Shown: in pieces, positions 8,815 through 15,330 of the stretch
Numbering within the stretch: position 1 is the first letter of the stretch
How the letters are laid out: every line of letters begins with the position of its first letter
NCBI GenBank assembly: GCA_905235335.1
Contig: CAJOKZ010000005.1
Location: forward strand, 1 to 39,612
Direction: 5' to 3'
DNA from: an uncultured Succiniclasticum sp.
GTDB taxonomy: Bacteria > Bacillota > Negativicutes > Acidaminococcales > Acidaminococcaceae
DNA: 39,612 bases
Translations under genes and position numbers: made by a program
Notes under the pieces: generated by a model
Told to the model about the DNA's origin: nothing
Seen by the model: only the letters and a program-made list of their open reading frames with translations
The model's database searches: none

Positions 8815-11800
8815 CTATTCTTTTCCTGCCATCTTTTTGTAATTAGCCAGCCGCTCCATAGCGTCCGCTTCCGTCTTCTTATACAGCTCTTCCGCCAGCT
8901 GCGGCCGCACCTTCTGCAGGGATGCGAAACGCACTTCACCCAGCAGATAGTCGCGGAAGCTTTCCGTCGGTTCCTTGGAATCCAAAATGAACGGATTCTT
9001 GCCCTGGGCCTTCAGTTCCGGATTGTAACGGTAGGTCGCCCAGTACCCGCAGGCAACAGCACGCTTTTCTTCCAGCTGGCTGCAGCCCATGCCGGCCTTC
9101 AGGCCATGGTTGATGCACGGGCAGTATGCAATGATCAGGGACGGGCCGTCATAGGCTTCCGCCTCGGTCAGGGCCTTGACCAGCTGGTTCTTGTCGGAAC
9201 CCATGGAAACCTGTGCCACATATACATAGCCATAGCTGATGGCCATCATGCCCAGATCTTTTTTCTTGGTGCGCTTGCCGCTGGCAGCAAACTGCGCGAT
9301 TGCTGCCGTCGGGGTCGCTTTGGAGGACTGGCCGCCGGTGTTGGAGTACACTTCGGTATCCAGTACCAGTACATTTACATTTTTACCGCTGGCCAGCACA
9401 TGGTCCAGTCCGCCGTAGCCGATATCATAGGACCAGCCGTCGCCGCCGAAGATCCAGTGGCTGCGTTTGATGAAGTACTGTTTCATGTCCAGAATGGCCT
9501 GCAGCGCTTTCTCCCCGCCGGCTTCTTTCTCCAGCAGTGCCGCCAGTTTATCGGCGCGTTCACGGGTTCCCGCGCTCACATTCTTATTCTCTTTCCAGTC
9601 TTTCATAGCGGCCTGCAGGTCAGCAGAACCCTTGCCCGCTGCCAGCGCGGCATCAATCAGTTCTTCCACCCGCTCCCTGGACTGTTCCACACCTAAGAAC
9701 ATGCCCAGACCGTATTCTGCATTGTCTTCAAACAGGGAATTAGCCCAGGACGGACCGTGGCCTTTCTTGTTTACGGTGTACGGCATGGAGGGGGAAGACG
9801 CGCCCCAGATAGAGGAGCAGCCCGTGGCATTGGCCACCATCATGCGGTCGCCGAACAGCTGGGTCACCAGTTTTACATAGGGGGTCTCGCCGCAGCCGGA
9901 GCAGGCACCCGAGAACTCCAGCAACGGCTGTTCAAACTGGGAGCCTTTTACCGTATTCTTATTCATCGGGTTCGGTTTTTCCGTTACTTCTTTTACTGCA
10001 TAATCCCAGGCCGGCGCTTTATCCAGCTGGGTAGCCAGCGGTTTCATAGTCAGCGCTTTCTTGGGAGCCGGGCAGATCTGCGCGCAGTTGCCGCAGCCCT
10101 GGCAGTCATACGGGGAAATGACCATAGCGAACTTGCTTCCGTCTTTGGCGCCCATAGCCGGTTTGGACGGATAGCCGATCTTTTCCGCTTCCGCGTCATT
10201 CAGCAGCACCGGACGGATCGCAGCGTGCGGGCAGACGAATGCGCACTGGTTGCACTGTATGCAGTTCGCCACTTCCCATTCCGGGACGTTGATGGCGATG
10301 CCGCGTTTTTCGTAAGCAGATGTGCCAACCGGGAAGGTGCCGTCGGCGTGGCGGGCCATGATGCTGACAGGCAGCTTGTCGCCCTCTTGGCGGTTTACGG
10401 GAACCAGGATCTCGTCAATGAACGCATTGCCGGTCTTTTTGGTTTCCACTTTATCTTTCGCGTCAGCCCAGGCAGCCGGCACATCGATCTTCACGATAGC
10501 CTCAATGCCTTTATCGATGGCCGCGTTGTTCATATCCACAACGTTCTGGCCTTTCTTGCCGTAAGATTCTTCTACCGCGTCTTTCAGGTATTTCACCGCG
10601 TCTTCCAGGGGGATGATGTCCGCCAGCTTGAAGAATGCGGACTGCATAATCATATTGATACGCCCGCCCAGGCCGATGGACTGCGCGATCTTCACAGCGT
10701 CGATAATATAGAAGTTGACATGTTTTTTCGCGATGTACTGCTTGATGGCCGCCGGCAGCTTATCCTCCAGCTCTTCCGGTGTCCAGGCGCAGTTCAGCAG
10801 GAAGTTGCCGCCTTCTTTCAGGCCGGCCATGATGTCGTATTTATAAACATAAGACTGATTGTGCACCGCCACATAATCCGCATCCGTAATCAGATATGGC
10901 TCCATGATGGGCTCTTTACCGAAACGCAGATGGGATACGGTGATGCCGCCGGATTTTTTGGAGTCGTAGGCAAAATAACCCTGGGCATACATGTCCGTGT
11001 GATCGCCGATAATCTTGATGGCACTCTTGTTGGCGCCTACCGTGCCGTCAGAACCCAGGCCCCAGAACTTGCAGCCCTTGGTTCCCTTCGGGGTGGCGTT
11101 GATAATTTTCGTCTTCGGCAGGGACAGGCAGTTGATATCATCTTCAATGCCAACGGTAAAGCCGTTCTTCGGTTCCGCCTGCCGCAGGTTTTCGATAACC
11201 GCATATGCATCGGACGGCGTGAATTCCTTGGAACCCAGACCGAAGCGGCCGCCCACGATGACCGGATGCTGTTCGCTGCGGTAGAACGCGTTACATACAT
11301 CCAGATACAGGGGTTCGCCCAGACTGCCGGGCTCCTTGGTACGGTCCAGCACCGCTACCCGTTTTACCGTCTTGGGAACCGCGGCCAGGAAATGCTTTAC
11401 AGAGAACGGGCGGTACAGGTGAACGGCCAGCACGCCGACCTTCGCGCCTTCCGCCGCATTGACCAGCTCTGCTGTCTTGACACAGGTATCCTGACCGGAA
11501 CCCATGACCACGATCAGGTTTTCCGCATCCTGCGGACCGTAGTAATTGAACAGGTGGTATTCACGGCCGGTGATCTTGCTTACCTTCGTCATGTATTCTT
11601 CCACGATTTCGGGCACTTCTTCATAATATTTGTTCACCGCTTCACGGCTCTGGAAATAGGTGTCCGGATTCTGGGCCGTGCCGCGCATAACCGGAGCATC
11701 CGGATTCAGACCACGCTGGCGGAAATCCTTGACAGCGTCCCAATCCAGCAGTTCCGCGTAATTTTTATAATCAAATACTTCAATTTTTTGGATTTCATGG

Positions 11801-12327
11801 GAAGTACGGAACCCGTCAAAGAAATTCAGGAAGGGCACCCGGCTCTTAATGGCCGCCAGATGGGCCACACCGGTCAGATCCATAACTTCCTGCACGCTGC
11901 CTTCGGCCAGCATGGCAAAGCCGGTCTGGCGGCAGGCCATAACATCCTGATGGTCGCCGAAGATGCTCAGAGTACTGGTAGCCAGCGCACGAGCCGATAC
12001 ATTAAAGACGGCCGGCAGCAGCTCGCCGGAAATTTTATACATATTAGGGATCATCAGCAACAGACCCTGGGACGCCGTATACGTGGCAGTCAGGGCTCCT
12101 GCCTGCAGCGAGCCGTGCACCGCGCCGGCTGCGCCGGCTTCAGACTGCATCTCCAGCAGTTTTACCGTCTGCCCGAACAGGTTCTTCTTTCCCGCGGAAG
12201 CCCATTCATCCACATGCTCCGCCATCGGCGAAGACGGTGTGATCGGATAGATACATGCAGCATCAATAAACGCGTACGATGCGTGAGCGGCAGCTTCGTT
12301 GCCGTCCATGGTTTTCATGATAGTCAT
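8815..12327 (-). CDS. nifJ: Pyruvate:ferredoxin (flavodoxin) oxidoreductase, one-chain
   Basis: Oxygen-sensitive enzyme that converts pyruvate and CoA to acetyl-CoA and CO2 with reduction of ferredoxin; a central step of anaerobic energy metabolism. At 1170 residues it is the fused single-chain form. The order is: N-terminal domain with YPITPSSPMAEH (residues about 28-39), a CoA-binding region, a two-cluster ferredoxin domain (CIQCNQCAFVCP near 690 and CQGCGNCAQICP near 742), and a C-terminal thiamine diphosphate domain (GDGWSYDIGYGG near 962) with CSGCGE supplying proximal-cluster cysteines. AAGGGG lies about nine bases before the ATG. It is monocistronic, with its own promoter far upstream and a strong terminator. 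Confidence 0.97.
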   Translation of the reverse strand: MTIMKTMDGNEAAAHASYAFIDAACIYPITPSSPMAEHVDEWASAGKKNLFGQTVKLLEMQSEAGAAGAVHGSLQAGALTATYTASQGLLLMIPNMYKISGELLPAVFNVSARALATSTLSIFGDHQDVMACRQTGFAMLAEGSVQEVMDLTGVAHLAAIKSRVPFLNFFDGFRTSHEIQKIEVFDYKNYAELLDWDAVKDFRQRGLNPDAPVMRGTAQNPDTYFQSREAVNKYYEEVPEIVEEYMTKVSKITGREYHLFNYYGPQDAENLIVVMGSGQDTCVKTAELVNAAEGAKVGVLAVHLYRPFSVKHFLAAVPKTVKRVAVLDRTKEPGSLGEPLYLDVCNAFYRSEQHPVIVGGRFGLGSKEFTPSDAYAVIENLRQAEPKNGFTVGIEDDINCLSLPKTKIINATPKGTKGCKFWGLGSDGTVGANKSAIKIIGDHTDMYAQGYFAYDSKKSGGITVSHLRFGKEPIMEPYLITDADYVAVHNQSYVYKYDIMAGLKEGGNFLLNCAWTPEELEDKLPAAIKQYIAKKHVNFYIIDAVKIAQSIGLGGRINMIMQSAFFKLADIIPLEDAVKYLKDAVEESYGKKGQNVVDMNNAAIDKGIEAIVKIDVPAAWADAKDKVETKKTGNAFIDEILVPVNRQEGDKLPVSIMARHADGTFPVGTSAYEKRGIAINVPEWEVANCIQCNQCAFVCPHAAIRPVLLNDAEAEKIGYPSKPAMGAKDGSKFAMVISPYDCQGCGNCAQICPAPKKALTMKPLATQLDKAPAWDYAVKEVTEKPNPMNKNTVKGSQFEQPLLEFSGACSGCGETPYVKLVTQLFGDRMMVANATGCSSIWGASSPSMPYTVNKKGHGPSWANSLFEDNAEYGLGMFLGVEQSRERVEELIDAALAAGKGSADLQAAMKDWKENKNVSAGTRERADKLAALLEKEAGGEKALQAILDMKQYFIKRSHWIFGGDGWSYDIGYGGLDHVLASGKNVNVLVLDTEVYSNTGGQSSKATPTAAIAQFAASGKRTKKKDLGMMAISYGYVYVAQVSMGSDKNQLVKALTEAEAYDGPSLIIAYCPCINHGLKAGMGCSQLEEKRAVACGYWATYRYNPELKAQGKNPFILDSKEPTESFRDYLLGEVRFASLQKVRPQLAEELYKKTEADAMERLANYKKMAGKE

Positions 12328-12490
12328 AGCCTGATTCCCCTTTTCTTTAAAAAAATTAGAACAACCATTCTTTACTTTTCTTTGGTTTTCTTTACAGCAG
12401 GAACCCTGTTCCGGGAAGCCCTCGCTTCCTTTGACGAAGTTCTTTCAATATTACAATGACAACGCGCTGCACATTATAATATTATTATTT

Positions 12491-12671: not shown

Positions 12672-13169
12672 ATGCATGCAATGACAGAACTGCTGATCAA
12701 CAGTCTTGGCTCTATTTTACAAACAGAAGCGGTTACCGACATAAACGGCAGCACGATCACGGCGGTGTTTCCCAATCCGTCCGGGGGAAGCCCGGTCAGG
12801 TTTACAGACGATCTCCAGGGGGATTTCAAAGTGATCCTGAATAAAACGCCCCGGTATTATCCCCGCGAAACGCTCTCCGCCGGGCAGATCCAAAAAGACA
12901 TCACAGCATATGCAAACGGCAGCACGGCGCTGCTGGATTTCACATACAACAACGGAAGCGAAAGTAAAATCGACCGGATCGCCAAAACCTCTGACATGGA
13001 AAACCTTTCCCTTTCCTCCCTGGTCGACCTGTGCGTCCGCATCAGCCTGGCGCGCAGCGTTGAACTGAAAGACCTGTTAGCCGCAGGCGGCACCGTTAAC
13101 GTGCATTTCTGGGATGCCGCGAAAGATTTCCGCTACCGGCAGATCGGGGACAGGCTGGAAAAACTCTGA
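12672..13169 (+). CDS. Unrecognised 165-residue protein
   Basis: I do not recognise a family. The protein appears soluble and cytosolic: no signal peptide and no membrane segment. The N-terminal half has alternating hydrophobic residues suggestive of beta strands (TDINGSTITAVF; FKVILNK), and the C-terminal half looks helical (LSSLVDLCVRISLARSVELKDLLAA). GAGGTGA lies six bases before the ATG, and an extended -10 promoter precedes it, so the gene is probably real. It is transcribed divergently from nifJ and converges with the symporter homologue, leaving only 21 bp between the two stops. Confidence 0.75.
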   Translation: MHAMTELLINSLGSILQTEAVTDINGSTITAVFPNPSGGSPVRFTDDLQGDFKVILNKTPRYYPRETLSAGQIQKDITAYANGSTALLDFTYNNGSESKIDRIAKTSDMENLSLSSLVDLCVRISLARSVELKDLLAAGGTVNVHFWDAAKDFRYRQIGDRLEKL

Positions 13170-13190: not shown

Positions 13191-14363
13191 TCACCTTTTC
13201 ATCCAGTCCAGCTTGTCCGCCAGGTACGCTCCCGTACCCGCCGCAGCCGCATTCAGCGCCGAACGCATGCCGTCCAGCATCCACTCGAACAGTAACAGCG
13301 GAACGGCGGCCCGCAACGGAAGTCCCAGCATAAAAAGAAGGAACAGCGCGCAGTAAAGACCGCTGCCGCGATAGTTCATCCCTGCCAGCGAGAACAGCAG
13401 GATCCAGACAAAGAATCCGCCGCCCGAGAATTCGGAAACCGGCATACCAACGTAACGGGCCGCCAGCATGCAGGCAATGCCCAGATACAGCACCGTGCCC
13501 GTTTTACCCAGCAGTTTACCGCATCTCCAGGCAGCCCGCCCCGTTTCCTCTGCAATCCCCATGCGCCGCAGACTGCGCAGGGCATCTCCTTCACCGGAAT
13601 CGGAAGCGCAGACCGCAAAGGCCTGCAGCAGGACCAATTTGAAGTTGCGCAGAAAATGCGCCGGGCAGTCTTTGCCGCAATGGCGCAGTTGATATCCGTA
13701 AACCAAAACTCCGTAGGCCGCACAGCAAAATGCCGTAACCAGGGCCAGCTTCACACCGGGCCACAGAACGGCCATTCCCCGGGTCGCAACCATAGGGCAC
13801 AGAAGGAAAAACAGACCGACAGGCAAAAGCCGCAGCAACAAGGTGCCGGCAAAAGCAGACACGTCCGCCAGCGAAAAGAACAGCCGGCGGGTTTCCTCGC
13901 CCTCCGGACCGATTTTCGCGGCGGCAGCACCGACCAGCACCGACAGCAGAAGCGCCCAGGGCATGGCAGGCCGGAGCCAGCGCAGCCCGAAATCGCCAAA
14001 GCCGGCAAAAGCGGCAGGAATCTGCGCAGACCCGGCAATACCGCCCGCGACCAGGCCAAGGATGGCAGCGCCAAACACCGCAATGCCATGGAAAAAACAT
14101 AACCTTGCAGGCGCCGAACCGTCAGCGCGCAGTTGCAGCCGCAAGATCACACCGGAAACAAGATTCAAAACGACAAGCGGAAGCGCCAGCAGAAGCAACA
14201 GCTTCAGATACGCCATCCCCACCGTATACAGCATCGCGTATACGCCGCGTCCGGTTCCCACAAAGCCAAGGATGATGCCAACCAGAATACTCACAATTAA
14301 GGAAGCGATCATCAGGACTGTATTATTCAATTTTAGATTAACCGGTATTCCGCGAATCTGCAT
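13191..14363 (-). CDS. Divergent dicarboxylate/amino acid:cation symporter (SDF/DAACS) homologue
   Basis: A 390-residue polytopic membrane protein. The overall pattern matches the glutamate/dicarboxylate symporter family: an early segment LKLLLLLALPLVVLNLVSG, a hairpin-like region CASDSGEGDALRSLRRMG, a segment with GKTGTVLYLGIA, and a C-terminal segment FEWMLDGMRSALN. Compared with archaeal GltPh, the NMDGT sodium-site motif reads GKTGT here, and the NVTGD end of helix 8 reads NAAAA, while the aspartate and arginine of the substrate site (LDGMR) remain. It may therefore transport without the usual sodium coupling, or do something else. The start at 14363 is chosen because AGGAAGG lies seven bases upstream; the frame is open to 14450. 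Confidence 0.75.
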   Translation of the reverse strand: MQIRGIPVNLKLNNTVLMIASLIVSILVGIILGFVGTGRGVYAMLYTVGMAYLKLLLLLALPLVVLNLVSGVILRLQLRADGSAPARLCFFHGIAVFGAAILGLVAGGIAGSAQIPAAFAGFGDFGLRWLRPAMPWALLLSVLVGAAAAKIGPEGEETRRLFFSLADVSAFAGTLLLRLLPVGLFFLLCPMVATRGMAVLWPGVKLALVTAFCCAAYGVLVYGYQLRHCGKDCPAHFLRNFKLVLLQAFAVCASDSGEGDALRSLRRMGIAEETGRAAWRCGKLLGKTGTVLYLGIACMLAARYVGMPVSEFSGGGFFVWILLFSLAGMNYRGSGLYCALFLLFMLGLPLRAAVPLLLFEWMLDGMRSALNAAAAGTGAYLADKLDWMKR

Positions 14364-14480
14364 AGTCCGCCCTTCCTGTTGAAACAGCGCGCCTAAAGTG
14401 AGGAGCATCCGATCAGCCGTCTGCGCGTCACCGGCGCAAACCCATGGCATTTTCCTTAAATCAATACGGCGCAGCCTTGT

Positions 14481-14509
14481 AAAAAAGCCGGTTCCTTACG
14501 GTTCCGGCT
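14481..14509 (-). terminator. Terminator after tRNA-Leu
   Basis: An AGCCGG/CCGGCT stem with an imperfect inner part is followed by six Ts on the minus strand. Confidence 0.85.
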
Positions 14510-14518
14510 GTATTTTTT

Positions 14519-14602
14519 TGGTGCGGGCGACAGGACTTGAACCTGCATGGTAAAACCGCCAGATCCTAAGTCTGGTGCGTCTGCCAATTCCGCCACGCCC
14601 GC
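14519..14602 (-). tRNA. trnL-TAG: tRNA-Leu (TAG anticodon)
   Basis: Acceptor stem GCGGGCG/CGCCCGC, an anticodon loop reading CTTAGGA, a short class II variable arm and a GTTCAAGTC T arm. The 3' CCA is encoded. No convincing promoter was found just upstream, so it may be read from the exported-protein gene at 14729-15259. Confidence 0.95.
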
Positions 14603-14728: not shown

Positions 14729-15259
14729 TTAGCTTTTTACTCTCATGGCCATGCTTATTACCTTACGTTCTTGTGCGTCTTTTCCCCCGGCTAATAAAAA
14801 TTGTAAGCTCCATCCAGCTGTTTCATAATTCACTATACAAGGACCCTGATAGTTTTTATCATCCATAGATATACGGTTATTCATGGTATCCAGACATTCA
14901 TCGGGTTCCCCATACGCTTTTTTCACTTCTGCGGCGGTAGAACCAGTTTTGATGCCGGCTTTCGTTGCAATCTTTATGTCGCCGTTAATGGCTACGCTTA
15001 ATACCGACTTGTCACCGTCCGGCATCGTATCTACTAAAAACCATTTGGAACTTCCTTCTTTAACGAAATAATATCTGGAATACTCGGTTGCCTGATCCTG
15101 ATGCACAGGCTGTCCGTATTTCGCAATTACTTCATTAAAGGGTTGCCCTAAGTAGATATTCCCAATTACAAAATCCTCTTTCGATACTGCAAAGCAAGTA
15201 CCTGTCACAGCGATTGCCAAAGCAGTAATAACAGTCATCACCAGCTTTTTACTATTCAT
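14729..15259 (-). CDS. Exported protein with two BamE/SmpA-like segments
   Basis: A 176-residue protein starting MNSKKLVMTVITALAIAV, a typical Sec signal peptide with likely cleavage near residue 24 after TCFA. The mature part repeats a short motif of the outer-membrane small lipoprotein (SmpA/OmlA/BamE) type: IYLGQPFNEVIAKYGQPV and later IKTGSTAAEVKKAYGEPDE. There is no lipobox cysteine, so it is probably soluble in the periplasm or cell surface layer. Function unknown. The start at 15259 has GAGGGGTG at good spacing; the frame is open to 15301. A good promoter lies about 75 bases upstream. Confidence 0.8.
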   Translation of the reverse strand: MNSKKLVMTVITALAIAVTGTCFAVSKEDFVIGNIYLGQPFNEVIAKYGQPVHQDQATEYSRYYFVKEGSSKWFLVDTMPDGDKSVLSVAINGDIKIATKAGIKTGSTAAEVKKAYGEPDECLDTMNNRISMDDKNYQGPCIVNYETAGWSLQFLLAGGKDAQERKVISMAMRVKS

Positions 15260-15330
15260 ATGGACACCCCTCGCTTTATAATTTGAATGATTTCTTAACA
15301 TTTATGCCAGCTAAGTTAAACTACGGCTTT

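Follow-up and report, generated by a model that had tools for sequence, protein, structure and literature searches.

An SLC1/SDF-fold protein of Succiniclasticum with altered sodium-site residues

How carriers of the SLC1 family lose their coupling to sodium is a current question, which Reddy et al. (2025, PMC12668577) approached with reconstructed ancestors. The available portion of that report gives the NMD loop the central part in coupling, with M311 touching the substrate (residues are numbered after GltPh unless assigned to SDFx) and R397 and D394 setting specificity. It describes proton-coupled members with altered sodium sites (GltP and DctA, in the Ext-H clade), whose signature is [T/S]92[A/L/I/V/M/F], M311L and D405N, with S279E as a putative proton site. 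The same portion describes uncoupled aspartate transporters of Firmicutes (Ext-Int/Anc-Int; PDB 9bgy, 9bgz and 9bh0); their reconstructed ancestor, itself uncoupled, keeps all sodium residues, as do 16% of its living descendants, and by these reconstructions coupling was lost before the residues were. Its discussion states that living members of this intermediate clade await functional study. In GltTk, according to the available text of PMC8431971, the Na2 site has a single side chain, that of M314 (the equivalent of M311), which stands between the ion and the substrate. Proton-coupled members with altered sodium sites and an uncoupled lineage are thus already described, as far as the available text of PMC12668577 goes, and SDFx, the protein analysed here, is an unusually far-reaching case.

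The window is a 39,612-nucleotide stretch from an uncultured Succiniclasticum sp. (GCA_905235335.1, contig CAJOKZ010000005.1). It carries SDFx, an SLC1/SDF-fold protein with altered sodium-site residues, as an intact 390-aa reading frame on the minus strand at 13191-14363, stop codon (13191-13193) included; the first-pass annotation had the positions right, and the strand is here corrected to minus. We place the start at 14363, the A of an ATG, because a Shine-Dalgarno sequence read from the sequence, AGGAAGG (14371-14377, minus strand), lies 7 nt upstream and because the N-terminus M-x-I-H/R-G-I-P-V is common to eleven close copies of SDFx. AGGAAGG is identical in 8 of the 13 upstream rows listed, and an in-frame stop occurs 5 to 20 codons upstream in 7 of the 9 close copies listed (the window copy excluded), and at 58 and 83 codons in copies L052 and L053. 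A longer frame of 419 aa, reaching 14450, was rejected, as there is no conservation upstream of the 14363 ATG. A tRNA-Leu (TAG) gene lies 155 nt upstream of SDFx (14519-14602, minus strand), followed by a terminator-like palindrome and T run at about 14481-14509, which was recognised by eye and is absent from the computed scan. Downstream, g165 (12672-13169, plus strand) is a convergent neighbour between the PFOR gene and SDFx, given as context only. The 900-aa open frame opposite the PFOR gene (9757-12459, plus strand) is probably a coding-strand shadow.

By profile and predicted fold, SDFx is an SLC1/SDF protein. It matches Pfam SDF (PF00375) with an E-value of 1.4e-30 and 107.1 bits, against a cut-off of 27.9; of four other SDFx copies scanned, three exceed this cut-off, L043 only just (28.4), and the fourth, L042, is not matched. 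Nothing exceeds any cut-off in the NCBIfam scan of SDFx, in which the best score is 37.4 bits. An AF2 model predicted from 13 aligned rows (8 close SDFx rows plus five ordinary SDF rows) has a pLDDT of 84.7 and a pTM of 0.85, while the 8 close rows by themselves gave an unusable model (pLDDT 36.3). The 13-row model shows an elevator fold with HP1, HP2 and a TM7 helix broken at 286-287, and it overlaps GltPh (6wzb_A) over 368 residues with a Z of 43.4 and an rmsd of 2.5 Å. Since it leans on the five ordinary rows, the fold is inherited from them, and since these push the model toward the known fold, it supports the register and no finer detail. An earlier proposal that the fold pattern of symporters is kept thus agrees with both the Pfam match and the predicted match to GltPh.

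SDFx positions were mapped on GltPh through a HMMER alignment, with lists of sodium- and substrate-site residues taken from the available text of PMC8431971 (GltTk numbers converted) and PMC12668577. Seven sodium-site residues are altered in the window copy: Y89H, T92A, S93V, N310G, M311K, D312T and D405A. The Na3 site is affected through TM3 (Y89H, T92A and S93V; SDFx codons H92-V96, 14076-14090, minus strand, at GltPh Y89 to S93) and through N310G and D312T. At Na1, N310G and D405A are changed and G306 and N401 retained, and at Na2 the changes are M311K, T308L, I350L and T352G, with S349 retained. The acid-binding core of the window copy is kept (T314, Y317, D394, R397 and N401), with D390E nearby. 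In TM7, GKTGT (SDFx G286-T290, 13494-13508, minus strand; K287 codon 13503-13505) replaces NMDGT at the break, and in TM8 (SDFx E360-A375, 13239-13286, minus strand) N371 to A375 stand at N401 to D405; both blocks are gapless. The first-pass annotation had read the change from NMDGT to GKTGT and the missing aspartate of NVTGD in the last helix, and the gapless alignment bears this out; the TM3 changes and the lysine at M311 come in addition. It had also raised the case of a shifted alignment that restores sodium ligands. With gapless TM7 and TM8 blocks and a predicted fold that matches GltPh, there is none, and a register shift was rejected because the TM7 block 279-293 has neither an acidic residue nor Asn. 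In TM8, several canonical rows have the aspartate of VDK in the column of SDFx D383.

N310, M311, D312 and D405 are absent from all 14 SDFx copies, while T314, Y317, R397 and a Glu at 390 are present in 14/14. SDFx therefore looks like a living endpoint, with four sodium residues lost in every copy and acid-site residues kept, so that the question of what replaces the ion becomes testable in one protein. Foremost among the changes is M311K, whose position makes an unusual sodium contact that has been investigated for a long time. GKTGT and D405A are identical in the window copy and in eight homologues of 72-83% identity, and these nine copies have a common pocket of K311, T312, R356, D394 and A405. 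Copies L052 and L053 have C/S at 311, G/S at 394 and D at 401, and L041, L043 and L042 have S/S/P at 311 and retain D394. TM3 is less uniform (S92 in L041, S93 in L052 and T93 in L042), with His at Y89 in 10 of the 14 copies. Hairpin tips are variable among the copies: within the HP1 tip (SDFx C252-G259, GltPh 276-283; 13587-13610, minus strand) the window copy has Asp at position 279, where the eight further members of the nine-copy group have Gly, and Glu occurs at 282 in all eleven close copies, while the HP2 tip (SDFx S325-G335; 13359-13391, minus strand) has Arg332 at P356 in nine copies. In ordinary SDF relatives from the same bacterial family (62 of 67 family matches were examined, 5 being left out), N310 and D405 occur in 62/62, D312 in 54/62 and M311 in 56/62. 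The sodium-site change is thus not due to chance, being common to nine copies, with the four residues absent from 14/14 and N310 and D405 present in every ordinary relative examined. One ordinary protein, L128, has NKDG and lacks R397, so a lysine at 311 is not in itself unique to SDFx. Two earlier readings need amendment. The Asp and Arg of the LDGMR motif do correspond to D394 and R397 in the window copy, but D394 is not fixed, being Gly or Ser in 2 of the 14 copies; and the loss of sodium residues is real, but it is not loss alone, as a lysine was gained at the Na2-contact position in 9/14.

How does SDFx compare with the described systems? It has in common with the Na+/aspartate symporters GltPh and GltTk the fold and R397, D394, N401, T314 and Y317, and differs from them in the seven sodium-site residues, so that it lacks the residue set of a Na+ symporter. 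Of the three signature residues of the H+-coupled clade it has one (T92A), with no Glu at 279; its likeness to GltP and DctA lies in T92A and in needing no sodium, the latter presumed for SDFx. It scores 31-37 bits with three GltP/DctA models that have cut-offs of 513-638, and five ordinary SDF proteins score 155-280 bits with the GltP model. With the Ext-Int lineage, as described in the available part of PMC12668577, SDFx has the SLC1 fold in common and probably also sodium independence, but it lacks the N310, M311, D312 and D405 that the ancestor of that lineage keeps. Neither the Na+ nor the H+ signature is complete in SDFx, as in the Ext-Int clade, which is a weak, negative likeness. In the PDB search 9bgz was best by sequence and 9bh0 came first by Foldseek E-value. 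However, 9bh0 overlaps the SDFx model less well than GltPh does (Z 26.9 vs 43.4), with a Foldseek TM of 0.54 vs 0.77-0.84 for several inward-facing GltPh entries, a difference that may reflect a different conformational state. D394 is replaced by Ser in DctA and by Asn in CuqDCT, whereas the window copy keeps it (SDFx D364). In CuqDCT, a mosquito carrier and thus eukaryotic, unlike SDFx, the available text of PMC3737229 ties the D394 change to succinate preference, which D394G/S in two SDFx copies might match. In ApcT and LysP a lysine replaces the second sodium ion, as we propose below for SDFx, and the available text of PMC12764776 implicates the Na2-site Lys of the APC fold in proton coupling; the fold is unrelated and the likeness an analogy only. 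Our literature search, which had little coverage of subscription papers, brought up nothing that we recognised on the SDFx protein.

Because key sodium-binding residues are replaced, SDFx probably moves its acid without sodium. We consider it reasonably likely that SDFx is an SLC1-type elevator carrier which binds a carboxylate and works without sodium, a judgement that spans any Na+-independent carrier, proton-coupled ones included. An uncoupled or proton-coupled carrier, which the first-pass annotation had proposed beside a sensor or a regulator, appears to be the best class of explanation. The carboxylate would be held through the retained R397/T314/N401 site, and the substrate may be a small acid and could be a dicarboxylate. 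The ammonium group of Lys287 (at M311) in the nine closest copies would sit at or near the Na2 position and stand in for the ion, so that HP2 could close on the substrate with no ion bound. Lys287 would either take up and release a proton in each cycle, giving H+ coupling, or stay charged, giving uniport or exchange; plain Na+-independent exchange or uniport seems slightly more likely than H+ coupling. As a fixed cation, the lysine could be partnered by D394, the residue to which the substrate amine binds in aspartate carriers. We offer tentatively, as a doubtful proposal read from the residues, that the conserved lysine of the NMDGT loop permanently replaces the Na2 ion and pairs with D394, its built-in amine turning an aspartate site into a site for dianions such as succinate. 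If true, the lysine-for-sodium switch would be convergent with carriers of the ApcT type. The two copies without D394 are also without the lysine, but as sisters they count as a single event, and in three further copies D394 stands with no lysine. Counting against the carrier reading, the lysine occurs in only 9 of the 14 copies, and three of the five copies that lack it keep a Ser/Thr at one TM3 position; the variable hairpin tips, the raised dN/dS and the divergence of the copies in three genomes weigh in the same direction. Succiniclasticum, a genus of rumen bacteria, lives on succinate. Succinate uptake as a unique need for SDFx was considered and is unsupported, since PF00939 proteins occur in 14/14 genomes; for the DcuAB family, none of the 14 genomes of the genus has a match over the cut-off and two matches are weak (PF00939 and DcuAB being the dicarboxylate carrier families covered).

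A proton-coupled carrier working like DctA or GltP, a special case of the sodium-independent carrier whose probability overlaps with it, is rather unlikely in our estimate. T92A is a published signature of the H+ clade, and candidate proton sites can be named in the Lys near Na2, the His at Y89 and the Glu at 282, but where the signature has M311L and D405N SDFx has K and A, and at the putative proton site, S279E, the residue is D in the window copy and G in the eight others of its group.

SDFx could also be a relative that does not transport and instead senses a ligand or assists another carrier as subunit or regulator, with the old acid pocket serving as receptor. Its fast evolution and variable hairpin tips would fit, and a further SDF match in each of the 14 genomes (at least one per genome) could do the uptake. 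Yet the 390 aa hold no added domain and still have the two hairpins, the broken TM7 and residues R397 and Y317, and of the neighbours neither g165, the 190-aa gene at 14729-15301 nor CorA has a regulator-family Pfam match over the cut-off; we think this reading unlikely.

Evidence on decay comes from comparison of the copies, one of which (G047) is left out of the dN/dS comparison. Paired with the window copy, 7 close copies give a dN/dS of 0.16-0.25 and two others give 0.34; in three pairs, where dS is high, it is 0.40-0.68. For the ordinary paralogue the figure is 0.08-0.11 in those first 7 genomes, so that the SDFx values are about two to three times as high. Identity to the window is 27-83% for SDFx and 84-95% for PFOR. 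Three positional orthologues are 26-33% identical to it, depending on the aligner, and such divergence in three genomes accounts for L042 having no Pfam match. These rates and identities are what a relaxed or slowly decaying duplicate without important function would show. Against it, no stop interrupts the profile match in any of the 14 copies, dN/dS in close pairs is well below 1, and the altered pocket is the more conserved part in the nine-copy group, in which 20 of 26 mapped functional positions are invariant vs 203 of 390 overall (P 0.0067). A narrower set of TM3, TM7, HP2 tip and TM8, from which HP1 and part of HP2 are omitted, gives 17/18 invariant (P 1e-4); it was picked post hoc, and the 26-position set is the fair test. 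SDFx is under purifying selection, and decay is unlikely given the uninterrupted frames, the dN/dS values and the pocket conservation; a duplicate of little importance strikes us as improbable. To the question of whether the change is conserved or random in homologues, which had been posed at the outset, the answer is that it is conserved.

That SDFx is still sodium-coupled through other ligands, such as main-chain carbonyls at Na1/Na2 or acidic residues in new positions, is highly improbable: Na2 is mostly made of backbone carbonyls, and GltTk M314C and M314S keep the 3:1 stoichiometry (available text of PMC8431971), but in the window copy no D, N or E occurs in TM7 block 279-293, D405 and D312 are absent in 14/14, and a lysine in the Na2 region would presumably repel Na+.

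SDFx occurs at one locus in 14/14 Succiniclasticum genomes, and no match of its strength was found in 45 genomes of the other 17 genera of the bacterial family. The best match outside the genus is an ordinary SDF protein (8e-36), where eleven SDFx copies score 1.8e-186 or better; the remaining three were recognised by locus position and by their own profile (A5), which at 1e-15 picks out all 14 genomes of the genus and 0/366 others of the class. With the A2 profile there was no comparable match outside the genus in 380 class genomes or in 398 genomes drawn from the phylum, and neither the SDFx alignment nor the window protein found a relative in scans of viral contigs. As far as searched, SDFx is specific to Succiniclasticum. 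L040, a partial copy with 72% identity over residues 273-416, lies at the edge of a contig whose MAG carries the label Bacteroidales; it is likely a misbinning and counts against strict restriction to the genus. The order PFOR, g165, SDFx is found in 13/14 genomes, the window included, with about 2 kb between g165 and SDFx at L048; at L041 SDFx borders the end of its contig, and another contig opens with g165 and PFOR. The tRNA-Leu (TAG) gene is upstream of SDFx in 13/14, within 200 nt in 11 and at about 1.4-1.5 kb in two. No metabolic operon at the locus points to a substrate. In three genomes of other genera (G011, G029 and G032) PFOR adjoins g165, and the 14-16 kb examined there contain no match to SDFx. 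The locus being fixed in the genus and PFOR and g165 standing elsewhere without SDFx, SDFx was either acquired or formed by divergence of a duplicated gene at the root of the genus. The product of g165 (165 aa) has no Pfam match over the cut-off, is conserved beside PFOR, and is present in 17 of 63 genomes of the order and in 4 of 21 genera. In a tree of 73 rows, 62 of them ordinary proteins and the rest SDFx copies (11 of 14), SDFx comes out as a single clade (100/100) in which L041, L042 and L043 branch off first and L052 and L053 are sisters; because SDFx branches are long and all 11 SDFx rows have an odd letter make-up, the tree does not settle its origin within SLC1.

Other SDF variants were met in the course of these comparisons. 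In genus g2, a separate group (L106, L107, L117, L118, L119 and L133) has NMNGT, D394N and a Glu at 318, where EAATs have their proton-accepting Glu; the group is possibly of a proton/dicarboxylate type. Another group, comprising L128, L110, L125, L129, L130 and L132, has NKDG, NTDG, NYDG or NSDG together with R397T and D390Y, and probably represents a different substrate class. Finally, at L054 (2105-4519, genome G042) two SDF genes lie head to tail, with NMDGV and NMDGL and a Glu at 394.
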